Below, piece after piece: positions 1-21,801 of a DNA stretch of 23,673 nucleotides. The DNA is from a virus: IMG/VR virus record IMGVR_UViG_3300021364_002084, positions 1 to 23,673 of that record, one strand, 5' to 3'. How positions within the stretch are numbered: position 1 is the stretch's first letter; every line of letters starts with the position of its first letter. The translations under genes were made by a program, and so were the position numbers. The notes under the pieces were generated by a model. The model made no database searches. It worked only from the letters and a program-made list of their open reading frames with translations, and had not been told where the DNA came from.

Positions 1-403
1 CCAAAGAAGTGTATTCGTTTGATACTGCAACAGTTGTGGGGAATGTAATTCCACCAGTAGTGCCATCAAATGTTGATGTTACACCCCCAACACCAAGGGT
101 AATATCACCAGTTCCGTTAGTGGCAAAAGAAATATTTCCATTACTAGTAGAAACAATGTTTTGACCATTAACATCTAGTGCAGAAGTCAAAATATTATAG
201 TCAGAAGCAACGAAAGTAGATCCGTTGTACTTTAATACCTGATTAGCGGCTGCATTAGCAACATTAACCTGTAGGGTAGATCCATTTCCCAGGGCAGTAT
301 AAATTTCATCAAAATTTTCATTGACTTTTGTGCCGCCAGCACGGAGAGTATCTCCAGTGTTGTCATTGGCGACACTGCCTAATCCAATAGTTTGCTTGGT
401 CAT
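1..403 (-). CDS. Tail-fibre-like structural protein, N-terminal part (cut by left window edge)
   Basis: The frame is open from an ATG at 403 to the window edge, giving 134 visible residues and no stop. It begins MTKQTIGLGSVANDNTGDTL and continues with RAGGTKVNENFDEIY. This matches the N-terminal signature of many phage fibre and virion proteins (IG..AND.TGD.LR....K.N.NF.E.Y), which is often followed by repetitive, Gly/Ser/Thr-rich, beta-structured shafts. The visible part after residue 40 fits that: NGSTLQVN, YNGSTFVASD, NGTGDITLGVGG. The start is supported by a Shine-Dalgarno-like AGGGA six bases upstream and by a late-promoter-like CATAAATA just before that. It lies 23 bases after the giant gene's stop and was probably expressed late with the other tail genes. 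The role as a fibre or baseplate appendage is inferred from the N-terminal motif and context. The C-terminal, specificity-determining part is not in the window. Confidence 0.8.
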   Translation of the reverse strand, partial: MTKQTIGLGSVANDNTGDTLRAGGTKVNENFDEIYTALGNGSTLQVNVANAAANQVLKYNGSTFVASDYNILTSALDVNGQNIVSTSNGNISFATNGTGDITLGVGGVTSTFDGTTGGITFPTTVAVSNEYTSL

Positions 404-423: not shown

Positions 424-431
424 TATTTATG
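424..431 (-). promoter_or_regulatory. T4-like late promoter motif (CATAAATA)
   Basis: Read on the minus strand the sequence is CATAAATA, an exact match to the NATAAATA-type -10 element of T4-like late promoters. It overlaps the stop codon of the 6295-residue gene and lies 20 bases before the ATG at 403. Transcription would start a few bases downstream and give a very short leader carrying the AGGGA ribosome-binding site. Position and orientation fit a dedicated late promoter for the fibre-like gene at the left edge. Confidence 0.6.
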
Positions 432-3400
432 CAGGTCTGACAACACCACCATTGATGGTAGGAGTCTCTGTTACTAGAGGTTGTTGTGCATCAGTGGTAG
501 AAGCTTGAGTGATGATCTCAGGATCAATTGCTTCTTCCCCGTAGTTTGCGAGGTTGGGAGCAATGTAATTATCATCGACGCTAGTTGCAACCGAAACATC
601 AGGATTTTGATATCCTGATCCAGGAGCGGACATCGTAACACCCGCAACACCAACTAGTGCTCTAATCTGTGCGTCAAAACCACTAATAGAGTCAACTCTA
701 ACGTTAGGTCTAGTTGTGTAACCAGATCCAGGAGCGGTAACCGATACTGTATTTAGTGTGCCAGAAGTTAGGATCGCTGATGCTGCAGCGTCTTTACCAA
801 AGACAGATCCAAGATAATCGAAGGTGATTAGCGAGTTAGAAGATTCGATAACCGCAACTTCTCTATCTTCAACCTCACCAGTGATCTCGATTAGGTCACC
901 AGGCTCGATTGGGGGGACAATTGTCTCTGCGTCAACGTCTGCTTCAGATCCAACGTAGGAGAATGCAACGAAAGTCGATCCCACACGAGGAATTTCAGAG
1001 AAGATGATTCTAGAACCAACGATCTCAAAACCAACGCCAGGTTCTTGAATAACACCATTGAGCGAAACGATGATGTTATTTTCTGGACGGATGACTGTGG
1101 ACTGGACACCATCTGTAAGAGTCAGCGAGTAGAATGTACCATCTCTTCTCAGGTTGAAAGACTGTCTCAACGAGTCGAAGTCGAAGGAAATATCATCCAA
1201 CTGTCTCAGTTTACCGACATAGAATCCTGTGAATGAGGATCCCAACTCAGGTGCCTCGGTGAATTGAATCGTATCCGAGAATGCGGTATATGCGTTGGTT
1301 GCACCAGGAGGTTGGAGAATACCATTGATGAAGACCAAGATATGACCTGCGGGATCGGGGAAGTAAGGATCACCGTTATTTGACGTAAGTTTGAAGGTAG
1401 TAGTAGTGCCATCAAATCCTTTGAAGAATCTTCTGACTCTAGCTTTCAATTCAATCTTAGAAACAATAACTGCGCGATAGTCGTTACTAATTGCACCTGC
1501 TTCAGGGAATGCTGCGCGGACAGCATCTTTAGTATCAAACGTGCCAACGACATCACTCAGATAAAGTCTTACATTTAGACCAACCGTTCTAATATCTTGT
1601 ACAAGACCAGCAGCAGCGCCAGGAGTTTCAACCAAAGTAGCGACACTTGCATATCCAACGGGGAATGCTTCACCAATACCATAGTCACCAACAATGTCAG
1701 TAACGGTAAATGTACCAAAGACAGGTGTGATATAGACGTAGTTGTTATCAAGATCAACCTCAGTAATAATACCGTAGGTGTTAGTATCTTGAATACCATT
1801 AACAACTTTGTAAAGTCTGTTTCCTACAGTGAAGTTATTGAGGTTGCTAATAATGTTAATACCGAATCTTGTATATCCATCAGAAACAATTCTCTGACCG
1901 ACCGAAACGTCCAGACCACTGAATTTAGAAACTTCAAGATATTGCTCAGAATTTTCTGCGTAAACAACTGCGTTAGTTTCAAATTCTCCATTTAGAGTTT
2001 CTGTATCAACAGTTAGTTTACCACCAGTGTTTTGCAAGACTGCTGCGTCTGCTTTGATGAACGAAACAGTTTCTGCAGTTTGTGTGGAAGTATATCCTCG
2101 GAATGGGACATTATCCTCAAAGTCTCCTTTCAGTTTGTTAAGTTGAATTCTATCTTCGATAGCAGCAATAGTTGCTGTTGTGCTATTTGTAGCACCAACA
2201 ACTACATCACCCACTTGCCATGTGCCAGCGGTAACAACAACATCAACATAAGAGAAGTTTTCGTCAGAAGTGAATCCATAGATTTCACCAGTAATGCCAG
2301 GAGCACCTTGCTTTTGACAAGTCTCATTCATTACAAATGGACCGTCAGTCACATCACCCGAAATACGGAATCTCTTATATTCTTTAACAAGTTGTGCTTC
2401 GTTAGCAACAATTGAGCGAACTTCTGCATACGCATCGCTGAGAGTGCCATAAAATGCATCTGCCTGAGAAATAGCACCGCTAGTGGGAGTAGGATAATCT
2501 CTCCATACTCCAGGATAGTATTCTCTAATGCCATAAGTGCGCGTGGGGATAGTAATGCCACTTGCAGCAACAACACTATTGATATAGGTATCATTCTCAA
2601 GTTGTTGGTCGAGAATGTTAATCAGATAGCGGACAATTCTCTGATATTCACCATCTACATTAGCGCCATATTCAGAATAAAGTTGAGATCCTCCAGCATT
2701 TGAGTAAGATTGGAAACTGGAGAATTGTCCGAAACCGATGAGCTCATTTCTGAGAGCCTGATTCATGTAAAGTCTCAATTTGAATAGAGTGTATTTCTTG
2801 ACATTGTATTCAATATTGTCATAGAAAATAGTGCCACCAACTGCACGGTAAGGATCAAGAGCACCCTGGTTAATTTTTGCGCCCCATAGACGAATGTAGT
2901 TACCACTACCAGTATCACCATGGAATTCAGCACCAAATCTAGATCTAATGCGAGCCTGTAGTTGAATGTTATTGAAACCAAATCCAAACGTCATGGTCGC
3001 ATAAACGCGATACCAATCATCTCCCACAGGAACGATGCCAGCATCATCAACCGTAATGCCACCCTGAGGTTGGAATACACTGCCAATGCTACCATTTAGC
3101 AAATCAACATCGAAGAAAACTTGCTGTGGAGCTGCACCAGGAGAAGACAATTCAGCTTGGAAGCGAATGTATCGCATACCTTGGGACCATTGAGGTGGGA
3201 GTTGTCCCTTCGCAAAGTAAGAAACTGTCCAGGTTTGAGTCTCTGTAGTAGATCCTTCATCAAAAGTAGTTGCAGTCTGATTATCAAATGTTAAGTTAGT
3301 GCCATCAAATGTTTCATAAGAAGAGAGACCATAATTTCTAGAGAGGTATACAGGTGCAAATGCCTGAGTTGCATAAATTCTATCTGCAGTAAATGTGCCA

Positions 3401-6400
3401 TCTGGAGAGCGAGACTCATAACCAGTATCGGCATCAACACTAACATTCTGTCTATTCCAGTTAATTTCAAATCTTTCGGGATTTGTCCAGAAGTTTTGAC
3501 TAATCGATGTACCAGCAACTAGGGAAGAAATTGTATTTGCCCTAGCAATAGTTTGAATGTTAGCGGGATTTTCAAAATATCTGCGATCTAGATCACCCCA
3601 AGTCCTGTTAGGACCATTGGTAACGTAAGATCCTTGCCTGTAATCATTTGCGCCCGAAACACCATAATAGAATTGATAAGATCCATTCTGGACAGGTGCT
3701 GCAGCAACACCAGGATTAGCAGGATCTTCAACGTTAGCAACAACAATATTTGTCAGTAGCTGACCGTTAATTCCATACCATGTATCATCAAAGACTTCCA
3801 CAACAGTCATTGTGCGAAGGACTGTCGCTGTGGGACTACCTTGTCTTTGCTCAATTGTAGATCCAACTTCAAAGTTGGGGGTGCCTTGCATTTGCAAGTC
3901 AAGAGTGTATGTGGAATCATACAATACATTGCTGTCAGAGGTATCGGTAATAGCGATGTCAGCAACGATGTCATCAATAATTCCATTAACAAAGTCATCA
4001 TACTGCCAAGTGCCTGATCCCCACTGCTGCTCGATTTCTGCAGAAATTTCCTCTCTGAAGAAATTTTTGTTAAACATAATCATCTTACCAGCAGCACGAC
4101 CCTCATCACCAACAGGAGTTATTGTGTCAATGATAGTATCGATAAGAGTTGTCCATGCCTGCACGACATCAGCACAATCAGTATCACTGTATGGAGCACC
4201 ATTAGAATCAGTAATCGTGTCATCACGATAAGGTTCTTCAAAAGTCCAAATGGCATTATATTGATCACCTTCTGTACTATCAGTCCTGTTATACAGAAGG
4301 TTGTTGATTGCTTTCTGACCAAGGAATTTAACCCGATCAAATGCTTCTACAGTAGCAAGAATTTGATCCTCAACATGGGTAAGACCCAATTGAGAAGTTA
4401 CATAGAATTCAGCTGCCCTGACGGTGTTACTATTACCACCAGTCAACAAATCTGTGATAACGCTGTCGATTAGAAGACCAATATCAACTTTACATCTGTC
4501 TCTACCAGATGTGCCGCCAGGATATTCAAATGCTCTATAAAGTGTGTTGTTGGCAACATAAGAGAAATTGTTATCAATATGACCGACTGCTTCATCAGAA
4601 ATATATTCTTTATTGAAGAAGAGCAAATCGCCAGCATCTCTAAAACGATCTCCTGTAGGAGCAAGCATTTCATTAGCAAGATCAATCAGAGTATCAATTG
4701 CAGACTGGACATTTGCACAGTTACCAGGATCATTTGTAATACCCCAATCACCAACAATAACATTATCGGTATTGTCTTCAGTTAGATCTCCAGTAATTGC
4801 TTGCTTTGCGTAGATACCCAAACGCTCATGAGCGTAGAGAGACTGTAGCATCTGAAGTCTGATATGCTGAATTTCGTCATTAGCACCAAGATAACTTTCG
4901 ATTGCACCGATTGTCTTTTCATTACCACCATTTTCAATATCATTTGCAATAGCATCCAAGATCAAACCAAGGTCAGTCTTACAACGCAAAGTGCCAGGAG
5001 GTGTGTCAAGACCAGTATACCCAACATTTCTGGGCATAGTAGTTGCCAATTCGGGATAGCGAACGATCAAGTCATACGCTGCTTTATCTACGATTGCGCC
5101 TCTGTTGAAACGAATTAGATTTGCAGCATCCTTAAATCTATTGAGAGAATCACTACCGATTTGATTAGTATAAACAATATCATTTGTAGCATCGTGATAA
5201 GTTGAGGTGAATGTAATCTCAGTAAAGGAATCAGCAACTGCACCAAGATATTCGTATGCAGGCTCAACTTTAGTGATGGTGCCCAACCAGTCACCAGTAT
5301 TGCTGGTAGCAACAGTAGGTGTCTCTGCCTCAGTAAGAGTATCAGTGAGAATATCAACTAGGTTATCAATCGTGTTTTGTACGTCAGCACAATCTGCAGT
5401 AGAGTAATCCAAAACAACAACTGCATTGCTAGTAGCACTCACAAAGGTATGAGTATATTGCTGTCCAACAGGAGAAGCACCAACATTAACAGTGATTGAA
5501 AGCGCAGTAGTTGCAGTAATTGGTAAGACTGCTTCATGTGCAGGATCAGTTACACGAGGATATGCAACTTGTAGATTATTTCCATCCGAAGTGCAAGTAA
5601 ATGTGATGGATTCAGTAGTCAAAGTAACTCTATCAGCGGTAGTCAAAGAGTGACCGCCAATTTCCAATACCAAATCACCTGTAGCAGGATCATAAGTGGC
5701 TGCAGTTGGTTGCTTAGTCGTGAGAGTTGTGTAAGAAGAGTCTGTGAGAGATGCGTCAGTGACTTGAGTGAGTCCATGAGATCCAGTTACAGTAACCAAG
5801 ACATTATTGATGACTTCCTTAGCAAGAACTGCAAGTCTGTCATATGCCCAGATAGTTTCAGTGATCTCTGTATCAACGTGGTTGAGAGTTACTGGGTTGT
5901 TGTTTCTGTTGACATACAGAGCAGCAGCATCCCACATGTGGTTGTTAGATCCATTTCTAAGATCCTCAACCAATTGCTCAACAATATCCTCAACGTCATC
6001 AATGCAGTTAATATTACCACCAGGGATAACTAGGGAAGGATATTGTGCTACTAGTTGTGCAACAACTTCTTCTGCGAGGAATTTCTTATTTGCTGCCAAC
6101 AGATTTGCTGCATCCAGATATCTGTGAGACTTACCAACAAAACCCGCAGGGACGTTAGCAGAGTTTGCACGAGTTGTCTCTAGAATTGCATCATTTGCAA
6201 ACTGATCAGTATCTGCCCAAGTAGCAACACCAGACCAATCATCCGTGTAAGTTTGTGCATCAGCACCATCAAAGTGGACTAGAAGTTTAGTATCTGTATC
6301 ACCCTGCCAGATACCCGTAGGAGCAGTAAATGTCGCTGTATAACGAGCAACAGTAGAGATTCTAAACTCATCAATATGACCATCAAATCCATTAGCAGCA

Positions 6401-9400
6401 CTACGGTCAGCACCAATTCTGACAGTCAAAGGAGAAACATAATTACCACCATCTGCATAGTCACCACCAGATTGAAGACCATCAACAAACAACTTAGTTG
6501 TAGATCCTGACTTAGAAACAGCAACGTGATACCAAGTATTTGAAGACAGTGCAGCACTTGTGATTACATCACTGCCATTGATGTGATATTTGAGATTTGC
6601 ACCATCAACATAGAGATAGGGAGCAACTTGAGGATCAGCAGTCCTCATGTCAAATACCGTCTTGTTACCAGTTACATCAGTCAATCTAATCCAACACTCG
6701 ATGGTATATGCGCCAACGCCAAATCCAAACTCAGCAGATGTTGCATTGGTCTCAACATAGTCTGTAGTAGCAGAGTCTAGAAGCAGAGATGCTGTGCCAA
6801 ATTTCTTTTGGGCAGTATCTAATTGAGCACTATTTTGGAAATCGATTTCATGATAGTCTTCGCCAGTCGATTGACAACGACCCATTTTACCTAAGAATAC
6901 AGTCTTTCTCGCTTGACTATATGCAATAACTTCTGCTTTAGAATTTCTAGATCTGATAACTTGACCAGGAGAGAAGAATCCTACACCATTCGTAGATTGA
7001 TTCTTATAGGTTAGTTTTCTTACTACACCAGGATCATCTGCACTGAAACTACCGACCTCATTACCATATGCGAGACTGAAGTTTCTAATAAACTCATTCT
7101 CAGTAAACGCACCACTCTGATTTTGTGTCGTAATGACATAGTAGTTGATCAATTCGTTAGTTGGGAATTGGAAATCAAACGCAGTGGTATTGTCAGTGTA
7201 ATCGACAATAGAAATCTGAGAAGAAGCAATGTCATCAATAATGACGTTAGGATATGTTGTAGAGATCAATCTGTTGAATAGCAGACCGAAGAAAGATGAT
7301 CCTTCAGAGATTGTTACCGAAGGAATTGCTTCATTGGTAACAGGATCAGTATATACAGCAGTTGAAGTAACTCTTGCAACAACACCAGATCCAGCAGCAA
7401 TAATAACATCGTTTAATTGAATGTCATACAGACCAGGAGTTGACTTGTATGTACCAGTAGTCTTACTGAGAATTAGTCTATCAGTAATACTAATATCAGT
7501 ACCGTAGATTGGAGAATCTTCCAATTGTTGAGTAGAAGTCGTGCCATCTTGACCTCTCAGTACGGTCAACGTTGTTGACTGAGCACCATCAGTAACCCCT
7601 GTTACTGCAAAGATTTCTGCTCCAAACTGATATTTCTTACCAACCTCAAAAGTACCTGCAGCAACAGGTGCTTCTGTGCCATCTGCCAGAATAACTTCAA
7701 ACTGAGTAGTAGAAAGACCAATAGTATATCTCAGTTTACCACGAGCAATTTCTTGACCTTTCTCAAGGTTGATTTCTTCAACTTTAGCAGTATTACCATC
7801 AAAGTTTCTTACAGTTTCGCCAAAGACAAACAGACCATTATTAACAACAGGAGTATCAACTCTGGAAGAAATTGTGTTTACATCACCAGTAAATCCACCA
7901 TAATTTTCAAGTTGATTTGAAGTGACAGTAACAGAATCACCAACAACAAATGGAATTTGTGTTGTAGTCACATATGCATAAACCTCACTGCCAATTACAT
8001 TTGTAATTACTGCTGTTGCGCCAGATGAAGCCACAATTTCTTGACCAATCTGATTTTCTCCCAAACTACCAGTGGTGTTATCAAACGTGAAGGTTTGAAT
8101 TTGTCTTACGTTACCAGCAAATCCAGTAGCACCAACAGTTGTCAATTCACCAGCAATGAAATTAACATTTGTAGTTCTATAACCGAAGATCGTGTTTCCA
8201 ACAACAGAAGTAACAGTGAGTCTTGCTGTGGAGGATCCACCGACAACTTCCATACCAGGATTGGGGAAAATGCCAGATTCGTTGCTAAATTCCAGTTGGA
8301 CAGTATCAATAGTATCAACAGTAACGTTGACGTATCTTACGCTCGCATCGGGTTGAGGAGGTTCGGAGAAAACAACAGAGTCACCCTGAATTTCAAATGC
8401 AGTGCCTGGTGTTTGAGTAATACCGTTGAGAATAATCATCAACTGATTGGCATTAGCAACAACTGTATTTCCATTAACCGTTAGTGGGAATGCTGTCCTA
8501 ACACCATCAAAGAGACTAGATATATCATCAATTCTTTGTACAACAGAAGTCAAGATATTCTCAGAAGAAGTCAGGCGCTTCTGTCTGAATAGGACTTCAG
8601 TATTATTGAATTCCTGATAAACGGGCTCAACCAGAGTGAAGTTTTGAATATTAGGAACTGTTGCTTGCTGTGCCAACTCAACAGACTTTGTAAGTTGGAA
8701 TGCAGTTTCCTTATTGGGAATGAATGCATACTCATTCAGATTCAGCTCACCAAACACCTTAAAGGATGCTGGATGGACATTCTTGAGTAGAATATTTTTC
8801 CAATCACTGATAGAAACAGAAGACTTAACAGCATACGAGAAGTCTTGATAATAGTAGGAGTCTTGGACTTTCTGAATAATTTCAGAAGGTTTACCAACGT
8901 CATCAATAAACTGACCAGTAGTTTGAGTAATTGATCCAATTTCTAGGACACCAGTAGCGATTTTCAGGTCGCTGATAATACCAGAAGACTTAGAAATTAC
9001 ACCAGTAAGTCTTTCACCAGAAACAAAGTCTCCTGTGTAATCTACAATCTTGAGAAGTCTAGGACCAATTTGCCAACCGTCATTAGTAGAGACAAAACCA
9101 GTTGCGGTTGCATTTTCAATAGATGGTCCTTGATATACTTGCTCACCTTCTAGGAAAATAGAGGTGGTAACGTTTGCCTCTGCAGTTGCACCAAAAGACT
9201 CAGTTAGTACTTGTTGTCTGCCGATACCAGCGTTTGCAAAAGAAATTGCATCACCAAGCTCAGCGTTTGCTGGAGTAATAGCAAGTTTCAATTGATCATC
9301 ATCAAGAGACTGTGCTGTGCCAGCAATTGCATAATATGTTGTAGTGCTATTCAATCTACCGAGAGCACCTGCTGCCAAGGGGAAGTCTGCACCATCTCCA

Positions 9401-12400: not shown

Positions 12401-15400
12401 TGTGACTCCGTAGAGTCAACGTAGATGAAGAATTCAAGAGTCCAGTTGCCATCAAGCAATGTGCCTAGTTGAGCACTAGGAATTTGTAGATATGCATTCT
12501 CCCAAGTGGTGTTAAGACCCGCAGGTTGATAACCAAAGATTTTAGCAACATTATCTTCAACCTTGAATGCGTCACTTGCGCCAACACTTGTGGGAACGTA
12601 GTGACCAGTTTGATCGCTAATATCAGTGATAAACTGAAGGATTAACTCATTTCTATTCCACTTGCTTTGACCAAAGATGTGGACATCACCAGAAGAGTCA
12701 ACAGCAAGAGATTTACCAACAATACCTTCGATTCTATTGCTAGTAGTTGTTGCCAATTCGGAAACAAACTCATTTCTGTTGTGCTTCTGAATTGTGCCGT
12801 CATACTTGATCTTAAGGGTATGTACGTCGGTTTTGGAATTGGTGGTGCTAACTTGTGTGTATCCAACGTTTAGATCACCAAAGATATCAATTTCGGAAGT
12901 GTCGATGATGTCAATATTGCCACCAGCAGGAGCAACATAGGCATAATTCCAAATCTCAGTGCCAGATTCATTAAACTTACCAACCCAGAATCTATCCTTA
13001 GTTGTAGGAGTTGCTTTTAGTCTTAGACCAGTTGTGACATAGAATTCGTCAAATTCATCGACTGCAATGCTAGGACTTACAAAAGAATAAACACTATTGC
13101 TAATTTCTTTGATCCAGGCAACTGTAATTGCTTGAGTTGAGATGCTAACTCTACCAATAGCGACGTTTAGGTCTGTAGCAGAAGATGTTGCTGCAGTTTC
13201 CATGCAGAAAAATACATCATCGCCATTTACAACGATGTCAGTAATTTTTTCCGACTTATTGGGAGATGTAAGTTTTCTCTTGACAGTAAATCCACCAGTA
13301 GTGTCAAGTACTGCCAAGAATGCATCATATGGATATGCAGAGTTGGTATTTGTGTAACCACCAATGATAAATCTAGTATCTGATACTTTTTCTAGAGAAG
13401 TTACATTATCTGCTCTTGTGGATCCAGAGATACCTGCATATGCTTTCTGGAATCCGAGAGTTGCACCTAGACCATTAGCATTTTCTACATATTTTACCAA
13501 GAAGATATCTGGATTGTATGCATCGAGAATTGTTGTATTTGTGCGAGCATCACCAACTACCCAAATGTCATTTCCATCAACGAGAAGTTTTTTGAAGGAA
13601 AGATTCTTGGTTGTGCTAGGTTGATTGGGTTTTAGAGTGGTTTCCCAAACTTTAACACCAGTAGAGTTGAGTTTAGAGATATAACCAATGGTATCTCCAG
13701 TGCTATCTACAGTTTCACCGCAAATGTAAACTTCTTTCAGATCATTAACAAAAACATCATTGATAGACGTTTGTTGATCAACATTTATACCATGACCAAT
13801 AGTCGAGACGTAATAATCTGCCTTTTTGAAGACCTGTGGGTGTGAAAGAATGACACGAGGATTTTGAGTGTATCCAGATCCAAAATTCAAGACATTGAAT
13901 TCAGTAATAGCACCAACTTGATTTACAATCGCTTCAATTTCACCGCCAGTGCCATCTCCATCAATGATAACCGTTGGGGGGATGTCCGAGTTGTATCCTG
14001 CACCATTAACATCAACAACGACCTGCTCAATACCTTTATATTGTCTTACAACATACTCTTTATTGGTATTTTCGGTTACTGGTGTATAATCAACAAAAAC
14101 CCTGTCACCAATAACTAGATTGTGGGGATTGGATGCTTGAAGAATACCATAATTAACACCATCAACGGTTTCAAAGGTATAAGATTCTACATTTTCACCT
14201 TTGATCTTAGAAACACGAGCAGAAGCACCAGATCCACCAGTATCAGTATTGTCAAAGACCAGTCTATCGTCAACCTGATAGTTTTGACCAGCATTTTCAA
14301 TTGTAAATCCAGTTACAGATGCATCTTCAAATCTAGTAATCGTTTCAACTTCAATATCAACCTTGGAGTCGAATTTAACTGCGGGGAAATAATCAAATAC
14401 TTGTAGGGGAGACTCCTCAAACATTTGCTCGGGATCATCAATCTCCGCCTGATCAATAATACCGTCTCTATTCTCGTCTTCGGCGTCAAATAGTAGGATA
14501 TCGCCAGATTCTGTAGTTAGAGCGTTTGTAGAGGCGTTTGGAGTCCTCTCAACGTCAATATCGACGTTTTCATATGGATCTCTGTAACGGACAACACCAG
14601 TTGGGATGTTTTGCTGTACAGCAGAGTCTCTAAGATTCCAAATGTCAACAATAGAGTTATAGGAAGGACCCATAACATATGGGAAAACAGGATTGCCATC
14701 TTCTGTAGCATCAATAGTGACAAAGTAGCAATATCTGCCATCAGGGAAGTCTGGTGTCTTACAGAATCTACCATTGTATTGATCTAGATCGCCAGATCCG
14801 AAAACATATTGATAGTCGTCAATATATGTGCCTGCAACGTCTGTTGTTAGAGCGGGTCCATCAACTCTAGCAGGTGTGATGTTGGTTACTTCATCATAAA
14901 TCAAGTTTGTCTTCAAAGAGTATGAAGATCTAATTCTGGAGATTTCAGAGCTTTGATCGGTAGGATCAATATAACCATAAGGACCGTAAATGGGGTTACC
15001 ATCAAATGCCCAACCAAGGATAGGAGAGTGCTCAAGAGATGTTTCTTGCTCTTTAATATTCCCGTTGCTGTCTTCAAACAAATTATCGCCCAAGAGATAT
15101 CTAAGTCTTTGGGGATTTGAAACGTGAGAGTACTCACCACCATACTGAATATTAAATCCTTCAAAGAGTGTGCCCTGAGCAGTATCAAAATTCTCAGATT
15201 CTTGCAGGTTGTAAGTCCACTGGAAAACGTTAGCAGTAAATTTAGCGTCTTGACCAATCGAATTCAATCCAATGACTGTAGTTCCTTGAGAGTATCCAAT
15301 ACCTCTGTTAATAATTTCAATACCAGTAACTCTACCAGCATTTTCGCCGTCAGTATCAATCGTTGCTCTAGCAACTGCACCAAAACCATCACCTTGAATG

Positions 15401-18400
15401 GTTACTTCTGGTGCTGTAGTATATCCACTACCAGCGGCAATAATTGCGATAGAAATGATTCTACCATTATTAACAATTGCTTGTGCAACAGCACCTTGAC
15501 CAGAACTTAGAGATACTGTAGGTATAGAAGTATAAGAAGCACCACCACTGGTAATCGTAACCTCTTTGATGCCGCCCCTAACAGATGCCGTGCCAGTTGC
15601 ACCTTGACCACCGCCACCAACAATAGTTACCAAGGGTTGTGATGTGTATCCACTACCACCATTGTTGACAAGAATTCTGGAAACTACACCTTTAGTGACA
15701 ATAGCAGTGGCAGAAGCACCAGACCCACTACCACCAACAATAGACACAAGAGGCGATGATGTATATCCAGATCCACCATTAGTCACTTCAATCTCAAAAA
15801 GAGATCCATCAACAGTGACGTTTGCAGTTGCACCAGATCCTCCACCACCGCTAATTGCCAATGCAGGGGGATTTGCAGCATCATAGTTTTGACCTCTATC
15901 ATCGATAGAGATGGAGGTTACTGCACCAAATGTCTTTTTGTTATTAGACTTATATGCTAAAACTGATACACCATTAACCCAGGTGCCAATAGGACCAGGA
16001 ATAGTATCAGTTTTTGTAGAAATTGTTTCTGTTGTGAAGGGGAAACGGTTTAGTTTTCTCTGGTTGCCAGGTAGGAATGCAGATCCTAGGAAAGGACCAA
16101 TCTCATAGTTTGGAATACCCGTAGAGGCAACATAAACATGCTCTGTATTAAAAAACGAGTTTTGGACATTAGTCGTATATGGACTAATTGCAGCATTAAC
16201 AGCATTAGACTGAGACTTACCTTTGTTGAGGTCAACTGAAATGAGAACATTGCCTTGGGGAATAACTGCTGCAGGTTGTGGCAACTGATACTGGAATACC
16301 GTCTGAGAATCCCTAGAAGTGACCAGGAAGGTGCCATTATAGACAATGGGGTTAGCACCATAAACAGTCACCTGATCACCCACTAGGAGACCGTGTGGAC
16401 TGCTTGTAGTGACTGTTGCAGACTGATTATTGATACCACCAAATGTTACTGATTCTACTTGTAGAAGTTTTTTGACGTTATACAACCAAGTTGTGAGTCT
16501 TGGGTCGTCTGAAGTGCCACCAAGTTTAGAAACTGTTAGTTTGTCCCCTGGCAAATAATAAGATCCAGTATCAGTCAGAGTGGTTTGTTGAGCATCAACA
16601 ATACCAACAACATTCATGACAACTTCTTGTGCTGTGCCTCTATTAAGGTAAACAAAGAAGTTGGAAGAAACTACGGTAGCGGAATCCCATGATTGTGCTG
16701 TTGTATTAGAAGAACCTCTAGTACATTCGATAAACTGGTTTAGGGACTTCTCTTTGTATTCAACAATTTCATTACCAGCGATAACAAATTCGCCGTTTCT
16801 CTCTGGCCAACCAATTGTAGAGTCAACAGTGATAATGTCATTATCTACCTCAAGTGGCTCAGCAAGTTTTGTTTTATATGGGACAACAAAGGTGCCTTCA
16901 ATAGTCTCTTCAGAAAGAATCAATTCATAAATGATGTCTTCAGAAGTAGCAATAGAAATGTAGTTTTCTACTAGAGCACTTGCATTTCTGATGTTGGGGT
17001 CTGCAATATCTTCAACCTGCTGGATAAGAGCATCTTGAATGTTTGCTGGATCACCAGAGACCAAAGTTGCACGAAGGACAGTGTTGATTTCCCAAGTCGC
17101 AGCAGATGGTTTAATAATCTGATCCTTGGGATAAGAAACAGTTACATTTTCACCATAAAGAAGTTTGAATAGATAAGCAACACTTAGCGAAGTGCCCTTA
17201 GTGCTATAAAAATCTTTAATGGTTTTAATAGCAGTCCTAACATCGATAGATTCATAATCGAGTTGAGGAATGTCGGGAAGATACTGCTCAATGTATTTGT
17301 CAAGCAATCTCTTGACAAACAAAGCGTCTAGGCACTTAACTTCTGCGTTAATTGCGTGTGAAGATGCGGTAGTATCGTTGCTGAATACTGCATTGCCAGT
17401 TTCTTCATATGCAGTGATACCACTAGCTGCTCTAGCGCAACCTTCAAATCTACATTTTTCATATCCACTGCCACTGGTAAGGACTCTGAAACCAGTAATT
17501 TCATTAAGACCCACTTCGACAGAAGCTTCTGCTTGAGGAGGTGCCTGAATAATGATTTTTGGAGGATTTGCGGCACTATATCCACTACCAAAATTAGTAA
17601 TGTTGATGTCAGTGATTTGACCGTTAAAGATCGACGCTGTTGCGGTTGCACCAACACCACCGATGTATACGCCAGAAGTATCTGTTCTATCATCAACGAT
17701 ATAAACAGACGGAATATCCTCATAACCACTACCACCACTTAGCAACTCAATATCAATAACACGTCCCGTGCCATCAACAGTTGTTTCTAGGACTTGAGCG
17801 CCAGTTGGGTTGACGACTGCAATTCTAGGAGCAGTAGTATAACCCTGACCTGCATTCAAAACAGTAATCGAGGTAATTACACCATTTGTAAGGTTTGCTC
17901 TAAGAGATGCTTTGATGGGGTTGATACCATCAGGTTCGTCAACATAAATTTCAGGTGCTGTCGTATATCCGCTACCACCGTTAACGATTGGAGGGGGTCC
18001 AGCAATTACACCACCATTTGCACCATAAGTCATGGTGACTGCGCCCAGCTCAGCGCCGCCTGGTTGTCTGAAGGTAACTCTGGGTGTAAATGTATATCCA
18101 CTACCAGAAGAAATAGTTTCTAGAGATGTAACAGTACCATTTGTGACTACCGCCCTAATTTCTGCAGCAACAGATCCCTCTTGAGTTGGCGATTCAATTA
18201 CAACAGTAGGAGGATTTGTATCACTATAACCTCTACCACTTTTTAGAAGAGTGGTATTTTTGATTCCGTTAATTAGAGGTTGTACAGAAGATCCTGATCC
18301 ATTGTTAGACTTAACTGCAACCTTAGGAGGATATGCAAATCTATATTGAGATCCACCCTCCGCAACTTCGACAGAAGTAAGTTGACCTGCCGCATTAACA

Positions 18401-19314
18401 CGAGAAAAACCAACGGCACCAGAGCCAAAAGAAGGAATTGGTGCTTCAATAGAGAACAGATCGAGTCTTCTACCCGTAATAGGCACCAAATTGATGAAAT
18501 TGATTAAATTTCCATCAAAAGTAAAATCAATCTTTGGTTGTAAAATTTGACCATCATAGATCGCAATAACATATTCATCCACTTCGGGACTGTATGCATT
18601 CGCATCTCTAGTAATAGCAAAGTTGATTTTGCCTTCACCAAATGCACTTGAGATGTTATCGAGTGCGTAAATGGTGTTTTCAATAAAACCACTCAAATAG
18701 ATGATTTGAGTTTCCGCTGCACTGTCAGCAGGCAATTTAGTTCTTGGTGCTGTAGTAAAGACGATAAAGTCTCCATCGATAACAAAGTCAACTCCAGGAA
18801 TCAAATACTCATTGTAGAGTTTTACGAGTACATGAAAGTTTGACGGGGGAGAAACTGGAGTGTCTTGAAGTGTCAGTTGAAAACGTCTTTCAACACCGTC
18901 GAATAGATTTATAGGATTGGCAAGAGTAGTCCACTTCTGCTTTACCTGTTCATACGAAATACCAGGAGATAGACCAATACTAGGAGACTGTACTGCTTTC
19001 TCATAGTAAATAACTTCATCACCAATTAGAATGCTGCCATCATTCTCTAGAAATTCATCAACGTTTTCTACAAAGATTGTAGAATCTGAAGCACCTGTGG
19101 ATTCTACAATCTTTGTAGATCCACCAAGAATTCCAACGTCAAGTTTATCAATATCTAAGTAATTTAGAAACTCATTGATAATATTTTGACCGTAACCCGT
19201 CTTTTCCTGAGACTTATAATAGTACTCAAGAAATTTATTAAATAGGGGATTAAAATCGTTAACAAACTGAGGTGTTTGAGAACTAATCGCTTGGGAAACC
19301 TTGTTTATAGACAT
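427..19314 (-). CDS. Giant modular baseplate/tail-fibre structural protein (6295 aa)
   Basis: This single uninterrupted frame encodes 6295 residues, roughly 670 kDa. The ATG follows the gp6 stop by three bases (TGA-TAA-ATG), suggesting coupled translation. I see no strong Shine-Dalgarno sequence. Approximate order of modules by residue: 1-50, an N-terminal segment of the type seen in phage tail proteins (QTPQFVNDFNPLFNKFLEYY); 305-620, GSGY repeats; 700-740, FYSTKGTS...LFKLLYGE...YPKDQI, a motif I associate with tail-attachment regions; 1125-1345, a second GSGY block; 1415-1560, YHYH-like (GWAFDGNPIYGPYGY, later FPDGRYCYF); 1830-2230, probable seven-bladed beta-propeller; 2245-2440, laminin-G-like; 2890-2912, GHQYVFDLSHSS module; 3035-3280, a degenerate GSGY block; 4165-4365, second laminin-G-like domain; 4397-5100, alpha-helical repeats with a beta insert (SITFTC...YPRVTDP); 5275-5490, carbohydrate-binding-like (SPDGTFTAD...WGAKINQG); 5960-6120, LNGVIQEPG repeats. 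It occupies the place of T4 genes 7-12. The adhesin or fibre role is inference; being a real structural gene is near certain. Confidence 0.9.
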   Translation of the reverse strand: MSINKVSQAISSQTPQFVNDFNPLFNKFLEYYYKSQEKTGYGQNIINEFLNYLDIDKLDVGILGGSTKIVESTGASDSTIFVENVDEFLENDGSILIGDEVIYYEKAVQSPSIGLSPGISYEQVKQKWTTLANPINLFDGVERRFQLTLQDTPVSPPSNFHVLVKLYNEYLIPGVDFVIDGDFIVFTTAPRTKLPADSAAETQIIYLSGFIENTIYALDNISSAFGEGKINFAITRDANAYSPEVDEYVIAIYDGQILQPKIDFTFDGNLINFINLVPITGRRLDLFSIEAPIPSFGSGAVGFSRVNAAGQLTSVEVAEGGSQYRFAYPPKVAVKSNNGSGSSVQPLINGIKNTTLLKSGRGYSDTNPPTVVIESPTQEGSVAAEIRAVVTNGTVTSLETISSGSGYTFTPRVTFRQPGGAELGAVTMTYGANGGVIAGPPPIVNGGSGYTTAPEIYVDEPDGINPIKASLRANLTNGVITSITVLNAGQGYTTAPRIAVVNPTGAQVLETTVDGTGRVIDIELLSGGSGYEDIPSVYIVDDRTDTSGVYIGGVGATATASIFNGQITDINITNFGSGYSAANPPKIIIQAPPQAEASVEVGLNEITGFRVLTSGSGYEKCRFEGCARAASGITAYEETGNAVFSNDTTASSHAINAEVKCLDALFVKRLLDKYIEQYLPDIPQLDYESIDVRTAIKTIKDFYSTKGTSLSVAYLFKLLYGENVTVSYPKDQIIKPSAATWEINTVLRATLVSGDPANIQDALIQQVEDIADPNIRNASALVENYISIATSEDIIYELILSEETIEGTFVVPYKTKLAEPLEVDNDIITVDSTIGWPERNGEFVIAGNEIVEYKEKSLNQFIECTRGSSNTTAQSWDSATVVSSNFFVYLNRGTAQEVVMNVVGIVDAQQTTLTDTGSYYLPGDKLTVSKLGGTSDDPRLTTWLYNVKKLLQVESVTFGGINNQSATVTTSSPHGLLVGDQVTVYGANPIVYNGTFLVTSRDSQTVFQYQLPQPAAVIPQGNVLISVDLNKGKSQSNAVNAAISPYTTNVQNSFFNTEHVYVASTGIPNYEIGPFLGSAFLPGNQRKLNRFPFTTETISTKTDTIPGPIGTWVNGVSVLAYKSNNKKTFGAVTSISIDDRGQNYDAANPPALAISGGGGSGATANVTVDGSLFEIEVTNGGSGYTSSPLVSIVGGSGSGASATAIVTKGVVSRILVNNGGSGYTSQPLVTIVGGGGQGATGTASVRGGIKEVTITSGGASYTSIPTVSLSSGQGAVAQAIVNNGRIISIAIIAAGSGYTTAPEVTIQGDGFGAVARATIDTDGENAGRVTGIEIINRGIGYSQGTTVIGLNSIGQDAKFTANVFQWTYNLQESENFDTAQGTLFEGFNIQYGGEYSHVSNPQRLRYLLGDNLFEDSNGNIKEQETSLEHSPILGWAFDGNPIYGPYGYIDPTDQSSEISRIRSSYSLKTNLIYDEVTNITPARVDGPALTTDVAGTYIDDYQYVFGSGDLDQYNGRFCKTPDFPDGRYCYFVTIDATEDGNPVFPYVMGPSYNSIVDIWNLRDSAVQQNIPTGVVRYRDPYENVDIDVERTPNASTNALTTESGDILLFDAEDENRDGIIDQAEIDDPEQMFEESPLQVFDYFPAVKFDSKVDIEVETITRFEDASVTGFTIENAGQNYQVDDRLVFDNTDTGGSGASARVSKIKGENVESYTFETVDGVNYGILQASNPHNLVIGDRVFVDYTPVTENTNKEYVVRQYKGIEQVVVDVNGAGYNSDIPPTVIIDGDGTGGEIEAIVNQVGAITEFNVLNFGSGYTQNPRVILSHPQVFKKADYYVSTIGHGINVDQQTSINDVFVNDLKEVYICGETVDSTGDTIGYISKLNSTGVKVWETTLKPNQPSTTKNLSFKKLLVDGNDIWVVGDARTNTTILDAYNPDIFLVKYVENANGLGATLGFQKAYAGISGSTRADNVTSLEKVSDTRFIIGGYTNTNSAYPYDAFLAVLDTTGGFTVKRKLTSPNKSEKITDIVVNGDDVFFCMETAATSSATDLNVAIGRVSISTQAITVAWIKEISNSVYSFVSPSIAVDEFDEFYVTTGLRLKATPTTKDRFWVGKFNESGTEIWNYAYVAPAGGNIDIIDTSEIDIFGDLNVGYTQVSTTNSKTDVHTLKIKYDGTIQKHNRNEFVSELATTTSNRIEGIVGKSLAVDSSGDVHIFGQSKWNRNELILQFITDISDQTGHYVPTSVGASDAFKVEDNVAKIFGYQPAGLNTTWENAYLQIPSAQLGTLLDGNWTLEFFIYVDSTESQTLSQGYQTLLGVGGAQTATGGIWFGYDMGTGKLQLAVADNTTLLNTATALESTQTTMFASNTWAKYTLQKSGNTYTAYVNGIQILQGTQSNTSFANKDLFFGNQVGWGAGATDFASDRQGQFRLDNVRLRNRAITPTVPSDIVTIPSNGDFAFAYNWTDDAWFADFTNTYNYADYQGIGFKIDKNQDTTRLGDLNASDSDLFANTEIDLVRTAVTPVTGAGLTITNVGYALADAGFQALDYDDSTTNYTVSGSGTQGGSTELTYQQDVWSGRTATVPSPGSRKVKATAVVKDRYFFKVTNTAKIDNILALTINQPFVFTVGAKLVLNTEADSFINSGYITSIDYTNRKVYVAVNNNDWTNDLNTGRLNTVRFDEQSTYGIRGPIPNDVNEMKQYQFVEVDNTTPGTFDIDLADFDAPSDIGGTDNLDEYARFKPFQEDQYSVKIEEVSGVTSFVVGSVVSLSSSDVSYNAGYTTINITNLTGVTKITLITNLNKVLQVTAVETSDTVYVITSSSHYLKEGENIFVDGNPSQEVNSVVYDEYDGAFSVEDVISIKEFTYKLPQQAVTIPSTTPGNVDIFIKSPTLKMYYGHQYVFDLSHSSMVGANLSFARDSLYKLEYSFNLISRQGSPGVTGGGQANPTVTFKVNTGLVTNISYYFDPGRTGDDSPVIPGSYLDVVTSPYNGEFQISSTSGGTITTGDDTMRFPLLNEPEGPAAVSTASYSTSSTKAVGSIADIRIVNTGGFYTRLPIVSSILSNRKIERIQINEPGTEYAVGRYDSVPIAGDGEGGFVSLVVENTTDDEGLTIPGQIVSATVTSPGKGYTTASIDVESIPGILGAGLTGSGADLQVVIPPFGTGAAIFTRGTNVGKIKKLKNNNFGYDYPHDYTLRPEITFPINAQLTSTSILSSITVTDPGSGYSQAPTVVITGGGGSGAIAEATIKNGRIDDIIVKDPGSGYSSTPTVGLRSSFNYVVNLDLGLLQFAFPHGIQNGAEVTLNVVDTGDGADFPLAAGALGRLNSTTTYYAIAGTAQSLDDDQLKLAITPANAELGDAISFANAGIGRQQVLTESFGATAEANVTTSIFLEGEQVYQGPSIENATATGFVSTNDGWQIGPRLLKIVDYTGDFVSGERLTGVISKSSGIISDLKIATGVLEIGSITQTTGQFIDDVGKPSEIIQKVQDSYYYQDFSYAVKSSVSISDWKNILLKNVHPASFKVFGELNLNEYAFIPNKETAFQLTKSVELAQQATVPNIQNFTLVEPVYQEFNNTEVLFRQKRLTSSENILTSVVQRIDDISSLFDGVRTAFPLTVNGNTVVANANQLMIILNGITQTPGTAFEIQGDSVVFSEPPQPDASVRYVNVTVDTIDTVQLEFSNESGIFPNPGMEVVGGSSTARLTVTSVVGNTIFGYRTTNVNFIAGELTTVGATGFAGNVRQIQTFTFDNTTGSLGENQIGQEIVASSGATAVITNVIGSEVYAYVTTTQIPFVVGDSVTVTSNQLENYGGFTGDVNTISSRVDTPVVNNGLFVFGETVRNFDGNTAKVEEINLEKGQEIARGKLRYTIGLSTTQFEVILADGTEAPVAAGTFEVGKKYQFGAEIFAVTGVTDGAQSTTLTVLRGQDGTTSTQQLEDSPIYGTDISITDRLILSKTTGTYKSTPGLYDIQLNDVIIAAGSGVVARVTSTAVYTDPVTNEAIPSVTISEGSSFFGLLFNRLISTTYPNVIIDDIASSQISIVDYTDNTTAFDFQFPTNELINYYVITTQNQSGAFTENEFIRNFSLAYGNEVGSFSADDPGVVRKLTYKNQSTNGVGFFSPGQVIRSRNSKAEVIAYSQARKTVFLGKMGRCQSTGEDYHEIDFQNSAQLDTAQKKFGTASLLLDSATTDYVETNATSAEFGFGVGAYTIECWIRLTDVTGNKTVFDMRTADPQVAPYLYVDGANLKYHINGSDVITSAALSSNTWYHVAVSKSGSTTKLFVDGLQSGGDYADGGNYVSPLTVRIGADRSAANGFDGHIDEFRISTVARYTATFTAPTGIWQGDTDTKLLVHFDGADAQTYTDDWSGVATWADTDQFANDAILETTRANSANVPAGFVGKSHRYLDAANLLAANKKFLAEEVVAQLVAQYPSLVIPGGNINCIDDVEDIVEQLVEDLRNGSNNHMWDAAALYVNRNNNPVTLNHVDTEITETIWAYDRLAVLAKEVINNVLVTVTGSHGLTQVTDASLTDSSYTTLTTKQPTAATYDPATGDLVLEIGGHSLTTADRVTLTTESITFTCTSDGNNLQVAYPRVTDPAHEAVLPITATTALSITVNVGASPVGQQYTHTFVSATSNAVVVLDYSTADCADVQNTIDNLVDILTDTLTEAETPTVATSNTGDWLGTITKVEPAYEYLGAVADSFTEITFTSTYHDATNDIVYTNQIGSDSLNRFKDAANLIRFNRGAIVDKAAYDLIVRYPELATTMPRNVGYTGLDTPPGTLRCKTDLGLILDAIANDIENGGNEKTIGAIESYLGANDEIQHIRLQMLQSLYAHERLGIYAKQAITGDLTEDNTDNVIVGDWGITNDPGNCANVQSAIDTLIDLANEMLAPTGDRFRDAGDLLFFNKEYISDEAVGHIDNNFSYVANNTLYRAFEYPGGTSGRDRCKVDIGLLIDSVITDLLTGGNSNTVRAAEFYVTSQLGLTHVEDQILATVEAFDRVKFLGQKAINNLLYNRTDSTEGDQYNAIWTFEEPYRDDTITDSNGAPYSDTDCADVVQAWTTLIDTIIDTITPVGDEGRAAGKMIMFNKNFFREEISAEIEQQWGSGTWQYDDFVNGIIDDIVADIAITDTSDSNVLYDSTYTLDLQMQGTPNFEVGSTIEQRQGSPTATVLRTMTVVEVFDDTWYGINGQLLTNIVVANVEDPANPGVAAAPVQNGSYQFYYGVSGANDYRQGSYVTNGPNRTWGDLDRRYFENPANIQTIARANTISSLVAGTSISQNFWTNPERFEINWNRQNVSVDADTGYESRSPDGTFTADRIYATQAFAPVYLSRNYGLSSYETFDGTNLTFDNQTATTFDEGSTTETQTWTVSYFAKGQLPPQWSQGMRYIRFQAELSSPGAAPQQVFFDVDLLNGSIGSVFQPQGGITVDDAGIVPVGDDWYRVYATMTFGFGFNNIQLQARIRSRFGAEFHGDTGSGNYIRLWGAKINQGALDPYRAVGGTIFYDNIEYNVKKYTLFKLRLYMNQALRNELIGFGQFSSFQSYSNAGGSQLYSEYGANVDGEYQRIVRYLINILDQQLENDTYINSVVAASGITIPTRTYGIREYYPGVWRDYPTPTSGAISQADAFYGTLSDAYAEVRSIVANEAQLVKEYKRFRISGDVTDGPFVMNETCQKQGAPGITGEIYGFTSDENFSYVDVVVTAGTWQVGDVVVGATNSTTATIAAIEDRIQLNKLKGDFEDNVPFRGYTSTQTAETVSFIKADAAVLQNTGGKLTVDTETLNGEFETNAVVYAENSEQYLEVSKFSGLDVSVGQRIVSDGYTRFGINIISNLNNFTVGNRLYKVVNGIQDTNTYGIITEVDLDNNYVYITPVFGTFTVTDIVGDYGIGEAFPVGYASVATLVETPGAAAGLVQDIRTVGLNVRLYLSDVVGTFDTKDAVRAAFPEAGAISNDYRAVIVSKIELKARVRRFFKGFDGTTTTFKLTSNNGDPYFPDPAGHILVFINGILQPPGATNAYTAFSDTIQFTEAPELGSSFTGFYVGKLRQLDDISFDFDSLRQSFNLRRDGTFYSLTLTDGVQSTVIRPENNIIVSLNGVIQEPGVGFEIVGSRIIFSEIPRVGSTFVAFSYVGSEADVDAETIVPPIEPGDLIEITGEVEDREVAVIESSNSLITFDYLGSVFGKDAAASAILTSGTLNTVSVTAPGSGYTTRPNVRVDSISGFDAQIRALVGVAGVTMSAPGSGYQNPDVSVATSVDDNYIAPNLANYGEEAIDPEIITQASTTDAQQPLVTETPTINGGVVRPA
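950..1430 (-). repeat. Tandem LNG.xQ.PG modules in the giant protein
   Basis: Two adjacent copies (residues about 5960-6035 and 6038-6121) share the pattern FDG..T.F.L....LVF.NG.LQ.PG....F...I.F.E.P..GS.F..FYVG. More divergent copies occur near residues 3600-3660 (LNGITQTPGTAFEIQGD) and, twice, near residues 135-290 (NLFDGVERRFQL...IPGVDFVIDGD and NISSAFGEGKINFAI). Each is about 70-85 residues and predicted to be all-beta. Similar NGVxQxPG modules recur in marine phage tail proteins. The recurrence at both ends and the middle of the chain suggests structural adaptor or shaft units. Function is unknown. Confidence 0.65.
3960..6130 (-). repeat. Alpha-helical Cys-containing repeats in the giant protein
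   Basis: Three full units and one partial unit start near residues 4403, 4728, 4891 and 5071. Each opens with a helix like RDAGDLLFFNKEYISDEA. It then has a conserved Cys and an acidic helix (C.xDIGLILD.I..DL..GGN..T..A...Y), a segment H..xQ...T..A.DR...L.K.AI.N.L, and a closing helix (D/N)CA(D/N)V..AI.TLID. The first unit is interrupted before its closing helix by a beta module carrying SITFTC and YPRVTDP. The helical character stands out in an otherwise beta-rich chain. I do not recognise a named family. Intervals between units are unequal, so exact boundaries are approximate. Confidence 0.7.
9480..10210 (-). repeat. GSGY-type glycine-rich repeats, degenerate block
   Basis: Residues about 3035-3280 of the giant protein carry copies such as VTSPGKGYTTA, VTDPGSGYSQAPTVVITG and VKDPGSGYSSTPTVGL, mixed with diverged forms (NTGGFYTRLP, NEPGTEYAVG). 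The better copies recur about every 40 residues and match the two stronger blocks nearer the N-terminus. The pattern alternates short beta strands with Gly turns. Confidence 0.65.
15290..15930 (-). repeat. GSGY-type glycine-rich repeats, best conserved block
   Basis: Residues about 1125-1345 of the giant protein hold five to six copies of a roughly 35-40 residue unit: NGGSGYTS.PLV.IVGG.G.GA.A.A.V..G.V..I.V. Clear copies begin at VTNGGSGYTSSPLVSIVGG, VNNGGSGYTSQPLVTIVGG, TSGGASYTSIPTVSL and IAAGSGYTTAPEVTIQG. Each contains two or three short beta strands separated by Gly-rich turns, which suggests a beta-solenoid or beta-prism shaft. DNA similarity between copies makes this a likely site of repeat expansion by recombination. 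Confidence 0.75.
17460..18400 (-). repeat. GSGY-type glycine-rich repeats, N-terminal block
   Basis: Residues about 305-620 of the giant protein carry about eight copies of the same unit, for example EGGSQYRFAYPPKVAV, SSGSGYTFTPRVTF, NGGSGYTTAPEIYV, NAGQGYTTAPRIAV, SGGSGYEDIPSVYI and NFGSGYSAANPPKIII. Spacing is about 40 residues. The block lies between the N-terminal tail-like segment and the FYSTKGTS motif, so it may form a spacer inside the anchoring region. It ends at an unusual GSGYEKCRFEGCARA with two cysteines. Confidence 0.7.
19067..19119. repeat. Perfect 20-base inverted repeat inside the giant gene
   Basis: The left arm (19067-19086) and right arm (19100-19119) are exact reverse complements over 20 bases, separated by 13 bases. 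Each arm also contains a shorter palindrome with 7-base arms and a 3-base centre: TCTACAA-AGA-TTGTAGA at 19067-19083 and TCTACAA-TCT-TTGTAGA at 19103-19119. The segment lies about 200-250 bases into the coding sequence and encodes TKIVESTGASDSTIFVEN. In mRNA it could fold as one long stem or as two small hairpins. Role unknown. Confidence 0.9.
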
Positions 19315-21378: not shown

Positions 21379-21801
21379 TTAGGGGCGCTGTAATACGAAA
21401 TCTACATTTTCAATAATTGGTAGACCAATAATCTTATATTCAACTGTTACCTCAATGGCATTATTATCATAATCTGCAGCACACTGCACTTTCGTAACAG
21501 AAATGCGTTTTTCATTATTTCTAAGTGTATTTAGAATCTCATTTTGAATTGAATCTACCAGGAAAGGATCTAGTGGCTCAAAGAGAAGTGCCGATATACG
21601 AGATCCATAATTAGGTTGATAAAATTTTTCTCCAGGAACGGTTAAGACTAGATTTTTGACCGACTGCTTAATGGCATTATCATTTGACACACTATTTACA
21701 TCGTTAGTAAATGCATTTCGTGTAAAATCCATCGCAAGGTCTTTGAATGCTCTAGACCTATTGCGACCGAAATCTGCGCCAGTAATTGATTTTAGTGCCA
21801 T
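21379..21801 (-). CDS. gp25: Baseplate wedge protein gp25 (GPW/gp25 family)
   Basis: The 140-residue length is normal for T4 gp25-like proteins, which sit at the inner baseplate and template sheath assembly. Family landmarks are visible at residues 51-76: LVLTVPGEKFYQPNYGSR followed by LLFEP, corresponding to the usual PGER...P.fGs.l...FEP pattern, here with Lys in place of the Arg of PGER. The C-terminal half (IEVTVEYKIIGLPIIENVDF) is the expected beta strand pair. The ATG lies inside the last codons of the preceding 61-residue gene (10-base overlap), and gp6 follows after three bases. The gene-25/gene-6 pairing is standard for contractile-tail baseplates. Confidence 0.93.
   Translation of the reverse strand: MALKSITGADFGRNRSRAFKDLAMDFTRNAFTNDVNSVSNDNAIKQSVKNLVLTVPGEKFYQPNYGSRISALLFEPLDPFLVDSIQNEILNTLRNNEKRISVTKVQCAADYDNNAIEVTVEYKIIGLPIIENVDFVLQRP

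Follow-up and report, generated by a model that had tools for sequence, protein, structure and literature searches.

How a single protein of 6295 amino acids fits into the baseplate of a T4-like cyanophage is the question raised by the locus studied here. The window, i.e., the whole stretch of DNA that was analyzed, is an isolated IMG/VR record of 23,673 bases, and genes located elsewhere were judged from complete relatives of this phage. In a preliminary description the giant protein was proposed to be a fused, baseplate-attached fiber that stands in place of the T4 genes 7-12.

Genomic Setting of the Giant Reading Frame

The frame (positions 427-19314, minus strand, 6295 codons) starts with ATG, contains no internal stop codon and is separated from gp6 by 3 bases, so that the preliminary description of an uninterrupted frame directly after gp6 was correct. 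At the base composition of the gene, the log10 probability of so long a frame occurring by chance is approximately -174. The nearest annotated isolate found was Synechococcus phage S-MS29 (78.5% over the giant's first 900 residues). When the giant was compared with its S-MS29 ortholog, most changes were located on third codon positions in every 600-codon window, which indicates that its whole length is under protein-level selection. The reading order on the same strand is PAAR protein, gp25, gp6, giant, and start of a PHROG 677 gene (Table 1). These genes belong to the late baseplate operon, and the window covers only a fragment of this T4-like cyanophage. For the gene at 22032-22691, the PHROG 3704 label 'ferredoxin' conflicts with the annotation 'transcriptional regulator' given to its positional counterpart in S-MS29.

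Table 1. Features of the window and positions of cpeT and repeat-bearing tail genes in five cyanophage loci.
Feature	Sequence	Position	Strand	Evidence or remarks
PAAR-motif protein (T4 gp5.4-type)	Window	22842-23345	-	PHROG 281, E 6e-24
gp25, baseplate wedge	Window	21379-21801	-	PHROG 261, E 1e-61
gp6, baseplate wedge	Window	19318-21375	-	PHROG 219, E 5e-218
Giant baseplate wedge protein, 6295 aa (cyanophage gp7; PHROG 701)	Window	427-19314	-	PHROG 701 alignment from residue 1 to end
gp7 core block 1 (residues 1-60)	Window	19135-19314	-	Short gp7s of pf16 and Melnitz-1 co-linear, that of HTVC008M weakly so
gp7 core block 2 (residues 655-830; FYSTKG motif)	Window	16825-17352	-	T4 gp7 715-761, hhalign E 5e-7; blastp 58% over 26 aa, E 1.3e-4
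YHYH domain (residues 1373-1536), part of insertion 2	Window	14707-15198	-	PF14240, 118.9 bits
Laminin-G/concanavalin-like module (residues ~2273-2396)	Window	12127-12498	-	PF13385, 26.2 bits, cut-off of 27.6 narrowly missed
gp7 core block 3 (residues 3415-3570; HPASFKVFGE motif)	Window	8605-9072	-	T4 gp7 864-890, hhalign E 1.5e-4; pf16 374-458, E 1e-11
Laminin-G/concanavalin-like module (residues ~4202-4324)	Window	6343-6711	-	PF13385, 66 bits
Phycobiliprotein-like repeat R1 (4396-4664, split by beta insert)	Window	5323-6129	-	Repeat HMM; Cys4437 in CIDD, Cys4642 in DCADVQ
Phycobiliprotein-like repeat R2 (4725-4889)	Window	4648-5142	-	Repeat HMM; Cys4778 in CKTD, Cys4866
Phycobiliprotein-like repeat R3 (4887-5071)	Window	4102-4656	-	AlphaFold pLDDT 91.8, pTM 0.89; Cys4941 in CKVD, Cys5047
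Half repeat R4 (5070-5121), without Cys	Window	3952-4107	-	Repeat HMM, E 3e-4
N-terminus of next gene, gp9/gp10-type connector family	Window	2-403	-	PHROG 677, E 6e-50; PHROG 958 (T4 gp10 family), E 2e-11
cpeT	L089 (S-PM2)	1953-2480		
Tail gene	L089 (S-PM2)	3929-15268		
cpeT	L090	1191-1715		
Tail gene	L090	3002-17281		
cpeT	L091	15524-16048		
Tail gene	L091	1122-14570		
cpeT	L092	1439-1978		
Tail gene	L092	2684-14737		
cpeT	L093	14955-15491		
Tail gene	L093	2809-13890		

Orthologs of the Giant Protein Are Components of Cyanophage Virions

PHROG 701 (6136 positions) spans the giant from end to end. A tblastn search with its first 900 residues returned 476 phage records, 290 of them with at least 80% coverage and nearly all of them cyanophages. 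The family is already known and conserved in hundreds of cyanophages, and its members are annotated as 'virion structural protein', 'gp7: baseplate wedge initiator' or 'baseplate wedge subunit'. PHROG 701/T4-GC969, S-SZBM1_208, and gp7 of S-SSM7 share family and place with the giant, and the position after gp6 is the same in Syn19, S-MS29, S-CAM8, and S-SZBM1. Lengths within the family range from 3007 to 6619 aa, the variation being located mostly in the insertions and the C-terminal arm.

Purified virions of S-SM1 contain T4-GC969 (PMC3037559), the cluster to which Syn19_088 belongs. In virions of S-SZBM1, the 6619-aa protein S-SZBM1_208 (724 kDa) was detected with 71 peptides and 13.5% coverage (PMC9146016). 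It is the ortholog of the giant, being encoded directly past gp6 and showing 44% identity over residues 1-2228, 47% over 2729-3740, and 41% over 5585-6290. For S-CREM2, the gene at the same place, a counterpart by position with 1937 aa calculated from its coordinates, was represented in virions by 91 peptides (PMC10665884). The detection of orthologs by mass spectrometry in S-SM1 and S-SZBM1 argues against an absence of this protein from virions, which the preliminary description had named as a finding that would speak against its proposal. A second S-SZBM1 protein, S-SZBM1_205 (615 aa, locus L075 8260-10107), is also annotated as 'baseplate wedge initiator'. Since it is similar in its N-terminus to the wedge subunit Syn19_090, this label looks wrong.

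Relationship of the Giant Protein to gp7 of T4

Core blocks 2 and 3 of the giant match, in the same order, short genes located after gp6 in pf16 (523 aa), Melnitz-1 (896 aa), phiM7 (1006 aa), and HTVC008M (1016 aa). Block 1 could be aligned to T4 gp7 only through a mixed core alignment, which joins the core segments for comparison, and gave no significant hhalign signal against T4 gp7 when used alone. Block 2 also matched the Pfam family Baseplate_wedge (PF23786), with a score under the cut-off of that family. The controls T4 gp5, gp6, gp8, gp9, gp10, gp11, gp12 (part), and gp53, five shuffled sequences, and the reversed gp7 all yielded hhalign E-values >0.05. Two families, PHROGs 26741 and 17744, have matches in the giant as well as in T4 gp7. 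The proteins encoded after gp6 that have blocks in common form a size series of 523, 896, 1006, 1016, and 3007 aa (S-SSM7), followed by those with 6114-6619 aa; the 3007-aa member is annotated as gp7 baseplate wedge initiator. Since the short gp7s of 523-1016 aa bear the same blocks, the giant represents an inflated gp7. Judged by short conserved motifs, it is what Kyanoviridae have as their version of T4 gp7, the wedge initiator.

The giant is laid out as a gp7 with two insertions (residues ~107-654 and 831-3414) and a C-terminal extension of ~2,700 residues past residue 3570. It resembles T4 gp7 (PHROG 964) in the position past gp6, in the co-linear core blocks (T4 residues ~643-890), and in being a wedge protein. 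It differs from T4 gp7, which has neither the two huge insertions nor the C-terminal extension, by a six-fold length, and the N-terminal ~640 residues of T4 gp7 are absent from the giant.

A fusion replacing several T4 outer wedge genes (7-12) had been suggested by the size of the giant and its position past gp6, and it would agree with the observation that none of the cyanophage genes at this place could be aligned with T4 gp10 or gp11 from end to end. However, gp8 (PF09215) is a separate gene of ~510 aa scoring over the Pfam cut-off in Syn19, S-MS29, and S-CAM8, and it was detected in all 13 further cyanomyoviruses at E ≤ 1e-3 (over the Pfam cut-off in seven). The gene order in Syn19 is gp25, gp6, giant, gp9, a 1399-aa wedge subunit, and gp8, and the PHROG 677 gene following the giant has an N-terminal motif common to T4 gp9 and gp10. 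Separate homologs, which the preliminary description had regarded as arguing against its own proposal, were found for gp8 in relatives and, in part, for gp10 in the form of the PHROG 677 neighbor. Moreover, T4 gp8 had no blastp match to the giant, the matches of T4 gp9, gp10, and gp11 were at chance level, and T4 gp8 and gp10 were among the hhalign controls without a signal for the core blocks. With gp8 and a gp9/gp10-type gene standing as separate neighbors in complete relatives, and with the giant itself a gp7 homolog whose blocks recur in short gp7s, the fusion is very unlikely and was rejected.

Adhesin-like and Repeat Modules of the Giant Protein

Among the modules predicted in the preliminary description, the YHYH domain, a laminin-G-like module (residues ~4202-4324), and repeats were recovered, whereas the propeller and the carbohydrate-binding module had no Pfam match at E ≤ 0.05. 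The view of the giant as a baseplate-attached, adhesin-like structural protein that is anchored by its N-terminal part is supported. Scanning of the first 3600 residues against NCBIfam gave no match, and PDB profile searches with the giant in pieces gave marginal matches only.

Fifteen GxGY...P repeat units are scattered along the giant. Units of this kind, seen at residues 300-620, 1180-1310, 1770-1830, 3219-3275, and 6196-6245, are common to many other cyanophage virion protein families, including the 'head closure Hc2' family and gp8, and this sharing is probably the cause of misleading PHROG labels. The labels 'head and packaging' (PHROG 701) and 'head closure Hc2' (PHROG 460) were not adopted for the giant, the latter because the overlap with PHROG 460 falls on the common GxGY repeats.

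The C-Terminal Extension Contains Repeats Related to Phycobiliproteins

Residues 4396-5121 comprise tandem copies of one helical unit of ~165 aa, three full ones and a half one, as defined by a repeat HMM. The Pfam family PF00502 was matched at residues 4391-4435 with 27.0 bits (cut-off 22.2) in a 600-aa piece, a score that varies with the piece scanned (22.3 bits in a 126-aa piece, 20.3 bits in a 296-aa piece). R2 and R3 gave no PF00502 match when scanned alone. Of 31 single repeats compared with Pfam, nine matched PF00502 (E ≤ 0.1), and no other family matched more than one.

When a profile of 30 repeats was searched against all PDB chains, phycobiliproteins accounted for all 60 matches listed (best E 1.1e-5), and the matches listed for a second alignment with 31 repeats were again all phycobiliproteins (best E 4.4e-5). 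The sequence match spans helices B-E and not the entire domain; no counterpart of the N-terminal phycobiliprotein helices preceding helix B was identified in the repeats. In Foldseek searches with AlphaFold models, 49 of the 50 best PDB matches of the single-copy model (R3) were phycobiliproteins (best match: E 1.3e-4, probability 1.00, TM-score 0.62), as were 48 of the 50 best matches of a four-copy model (pLDDT 74). The exceptions were 8u0f ('bacterial fluorescent protein') with both models and a tandem haemoglobin with the four-copy model only. The structural matches to phycobiliproteins had identities of 12-20% and TM-scores of about 0.6. These results show that residues 4396-5121 are related to phycobiliproteins in sequence and in fold, the latter being a predicted globin-type fold.

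The repeats resemble phycobiliproteins (PF00502) and bilin-biosynthesis-associated globins (BBAGs; PMC10151467) in the predicted globin-type fold, in a CxxD/CxRD site, and in a second Cys before the last helix, but differ from them by their tandem arrangement within a virion tail protein and by the low identity. No description of phycobiliprotein-like domains in phage tails was found in the literature searched, which left subscription papers mostly outside, so that an earlier description is possible. The records and papers on the giant's family also contained no mention of such domains that we could find. The gp7 giant family is already known, and the phycobiliprotein-like repeats in its C-terminal extension are probably new.

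Conservation of the Chromophore-Site Motif in the Repeats

The CxRD motif binds bilin in many phycobiliproteins and in some BBAGs (PMC10151467). Cys84-x-Arg86-Asp87 served as reference for the chromophore site, and in the PDB profile alignments the Cys and the Asp of the repeats fall on the Cys and the Asp of this site. Among 129 distinct phage copies, 111 have a Cys in the respective column and 18 lack this first Cys. An Asp at position +3 is present in each of the 111 Cys-bearing copies and the full CxRD motif in 43, the family consensus being CKRD. The three full copies in the window have kept Cys and Asp without the Arg (CIDD, CKTD, and CKVD). The giant contains only 18 Cys in 6295 residues, including the two expected per full copy and one more in the insert of R1. 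The second conserved Cys of the phage repeats sits at the helix-H position. In beta subunits, Cys-153 is the residue served by T-type lyases (PMC10452541); by eye, the second Cys of the phage repeats is its counterpart.

With about an even chance, the repeats are structural spacers only, having a globin-type helical fold that stems from a bilin-binding ancestor or from convergence, and cysteines that form disulfides or bind no ligand. Such a role would be in line with the many repeats and their low identity to phycobiliproteins, with the absence of the CxRD Arg from the window's protein and of the first Cys from part of the copies, and with the extracellular location of virions, where disulfides are possible. 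Yet, the invariant Asp of the Cys-bearing copies and the full CxRD motifs are hard to explain without a chromophore site, and the repeats co-occur with CpeT.

Co-occurrence of the Repeats with CpeT

A tblastn search with one repeat returned 335 phage records, 334 of which were named Synechococcus, Prochlorococcus or cyanophage and one 'Marine'; a divergent repeat copy gave a similar distribution. The repeat profile found none in pf16, phiM7, HTVC008M, Melnitz-1, and T4. Co-occurrence with CpeT, a bilin lyase scored here as family PF06206, was analyzed in 21 isolate genomes. Both repeats and CpeT were present in 13 of them (Syn19, S-MS29, S-CAM8, P-HM2, S-SZBM1, P-SSM4, S-RSM4, Syn1, S-CAM1, S-WAM2, S-PM2, S-CAM7, and S-CREM1) and neither in seven (S-SM2, P-SSM2, P-TIM68, S-CRM01, HTVC008M, Melnitz-1, and phiM7), while S-SSM7 has only C-terminal scraps of a repeat and no CpeT. 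Counting S-SSM7 as lacking, full repeats are confined to CpeT-bearing genomes (Fisher P 5e-6; 1e-4 for cyanophages alone), an association that is not independent because the genomes are related. Two of three environmental records have repeats together with CpeT; the third, a 250-kb IMG/VR record, has a repeat without CpeT. This record contains one full repeat (CADD) in a 1122-aa frame at 190500-195500. In cluster C cyanophages, cpcV is found instead of a T-type lyase (PMC10665884).

In S-PM2, S-WAM2, S-RSM4, Syn1, and S-CAM1, cpeT is located ~0.7-1.4 kb upstream of a repeat-bearing tail gene on the same strand (Table 1). These five genes encode 'short tail fiber proteins' of 3,693-4,759 aa, whose full repeats mostly contain CKRD, CRRD, CERD or similar motifs. 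The adjacency suggests that the giant tail protein is a candidate substrate of the phage CpeT. Within the S-PM2 tail fiber gene, sixteen tRNA genes are annotated (NC_006820, 168556-173383; L089 6557-11384). ARAGORN detected no tRNA within this stretch, and the tRNA coordinates of the record look misplaced.

It is possible, though rather unlikely, that the repeats carry a covalent bilin attached by the phage CpeT. The conservation of the CxxD/CxRD site would fit such a role, as would the second Cys, which is conserved and whose helix-H position is like that of the beta-subunit site of T-type lyases (PMC10452541). CpeT presence matches that of full repeats throughout the isolates (13 with both, 8 with neither), and cpeT lies just upstream of the tail gene in five phages. 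However, the association was observed among related genomes, the adjacency may go back to one ancestral event, Syn19 and S-SZBM1 have cpeT at a great distance from the repeat gene, and the environmental record with the CADD repeat has no CpeT.

Discussion

The giant is very probably a cyanophage gp7 whose arms carry adhesive modules and phycobiliprotein-like domains, the latter as scaffold or as bilin carriers. By homology to T4, core blocks 1-3 would bind gp6 and start wedge assembly. Three stretches of the chain would project from the baseplate as long arms, one on either side of block 2 and the third past block 3. These arms would be built of GxGY repeats, the YHYH domain, and laminin-G-like lectin modules, and the C-terminal one would bear the three and a half tandem domains with predicted globin fold. 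The arms may reach the host surface and take part in adsorption. For the phycobiliprotein-like domains, two roles are conceivable: a structural scaffold taken over from a globin that bound bilin, or true carriers of bilin, whose maturation would depend on the CpeT of the phage.

As a gp7, the giant would be a small wedge protein that was inflated more than ten-fold by adhesive modules and whose core is still co-linear. The phycobiliprotein-like repeats matter more than this inflation and raise the interest of the finding. Through them, phages that abound in the ocean have in their tails the fold and the chromophore site of the light-harvesting antenna of their cyanobacterial hosts, and the cyanophage CpeT lyase gains a candidate acceptor. 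The benefit of cyanophage CpeT is usually assumed to lie in host light harvesting. If the phage CpeT attached bilin to the repeats, it would serve the virion instead of or besides the host antenna, and the question of its acceptor is directly testable on purified virions. That cyanophage tail or baseplate proteins carry bilin-binding phycobiliprotein-like arrays which are chromophorylated or folded by the phage CpeT lyase is a tentative proposal, to which we assign a slightly better than one-in-four chance. If it is true, cpeT, a 'photosynthesis' gene of the phage, would act in virion maturation, and the particles themselves would be pigmented or light-sensing or would mimic the antenna of the host.
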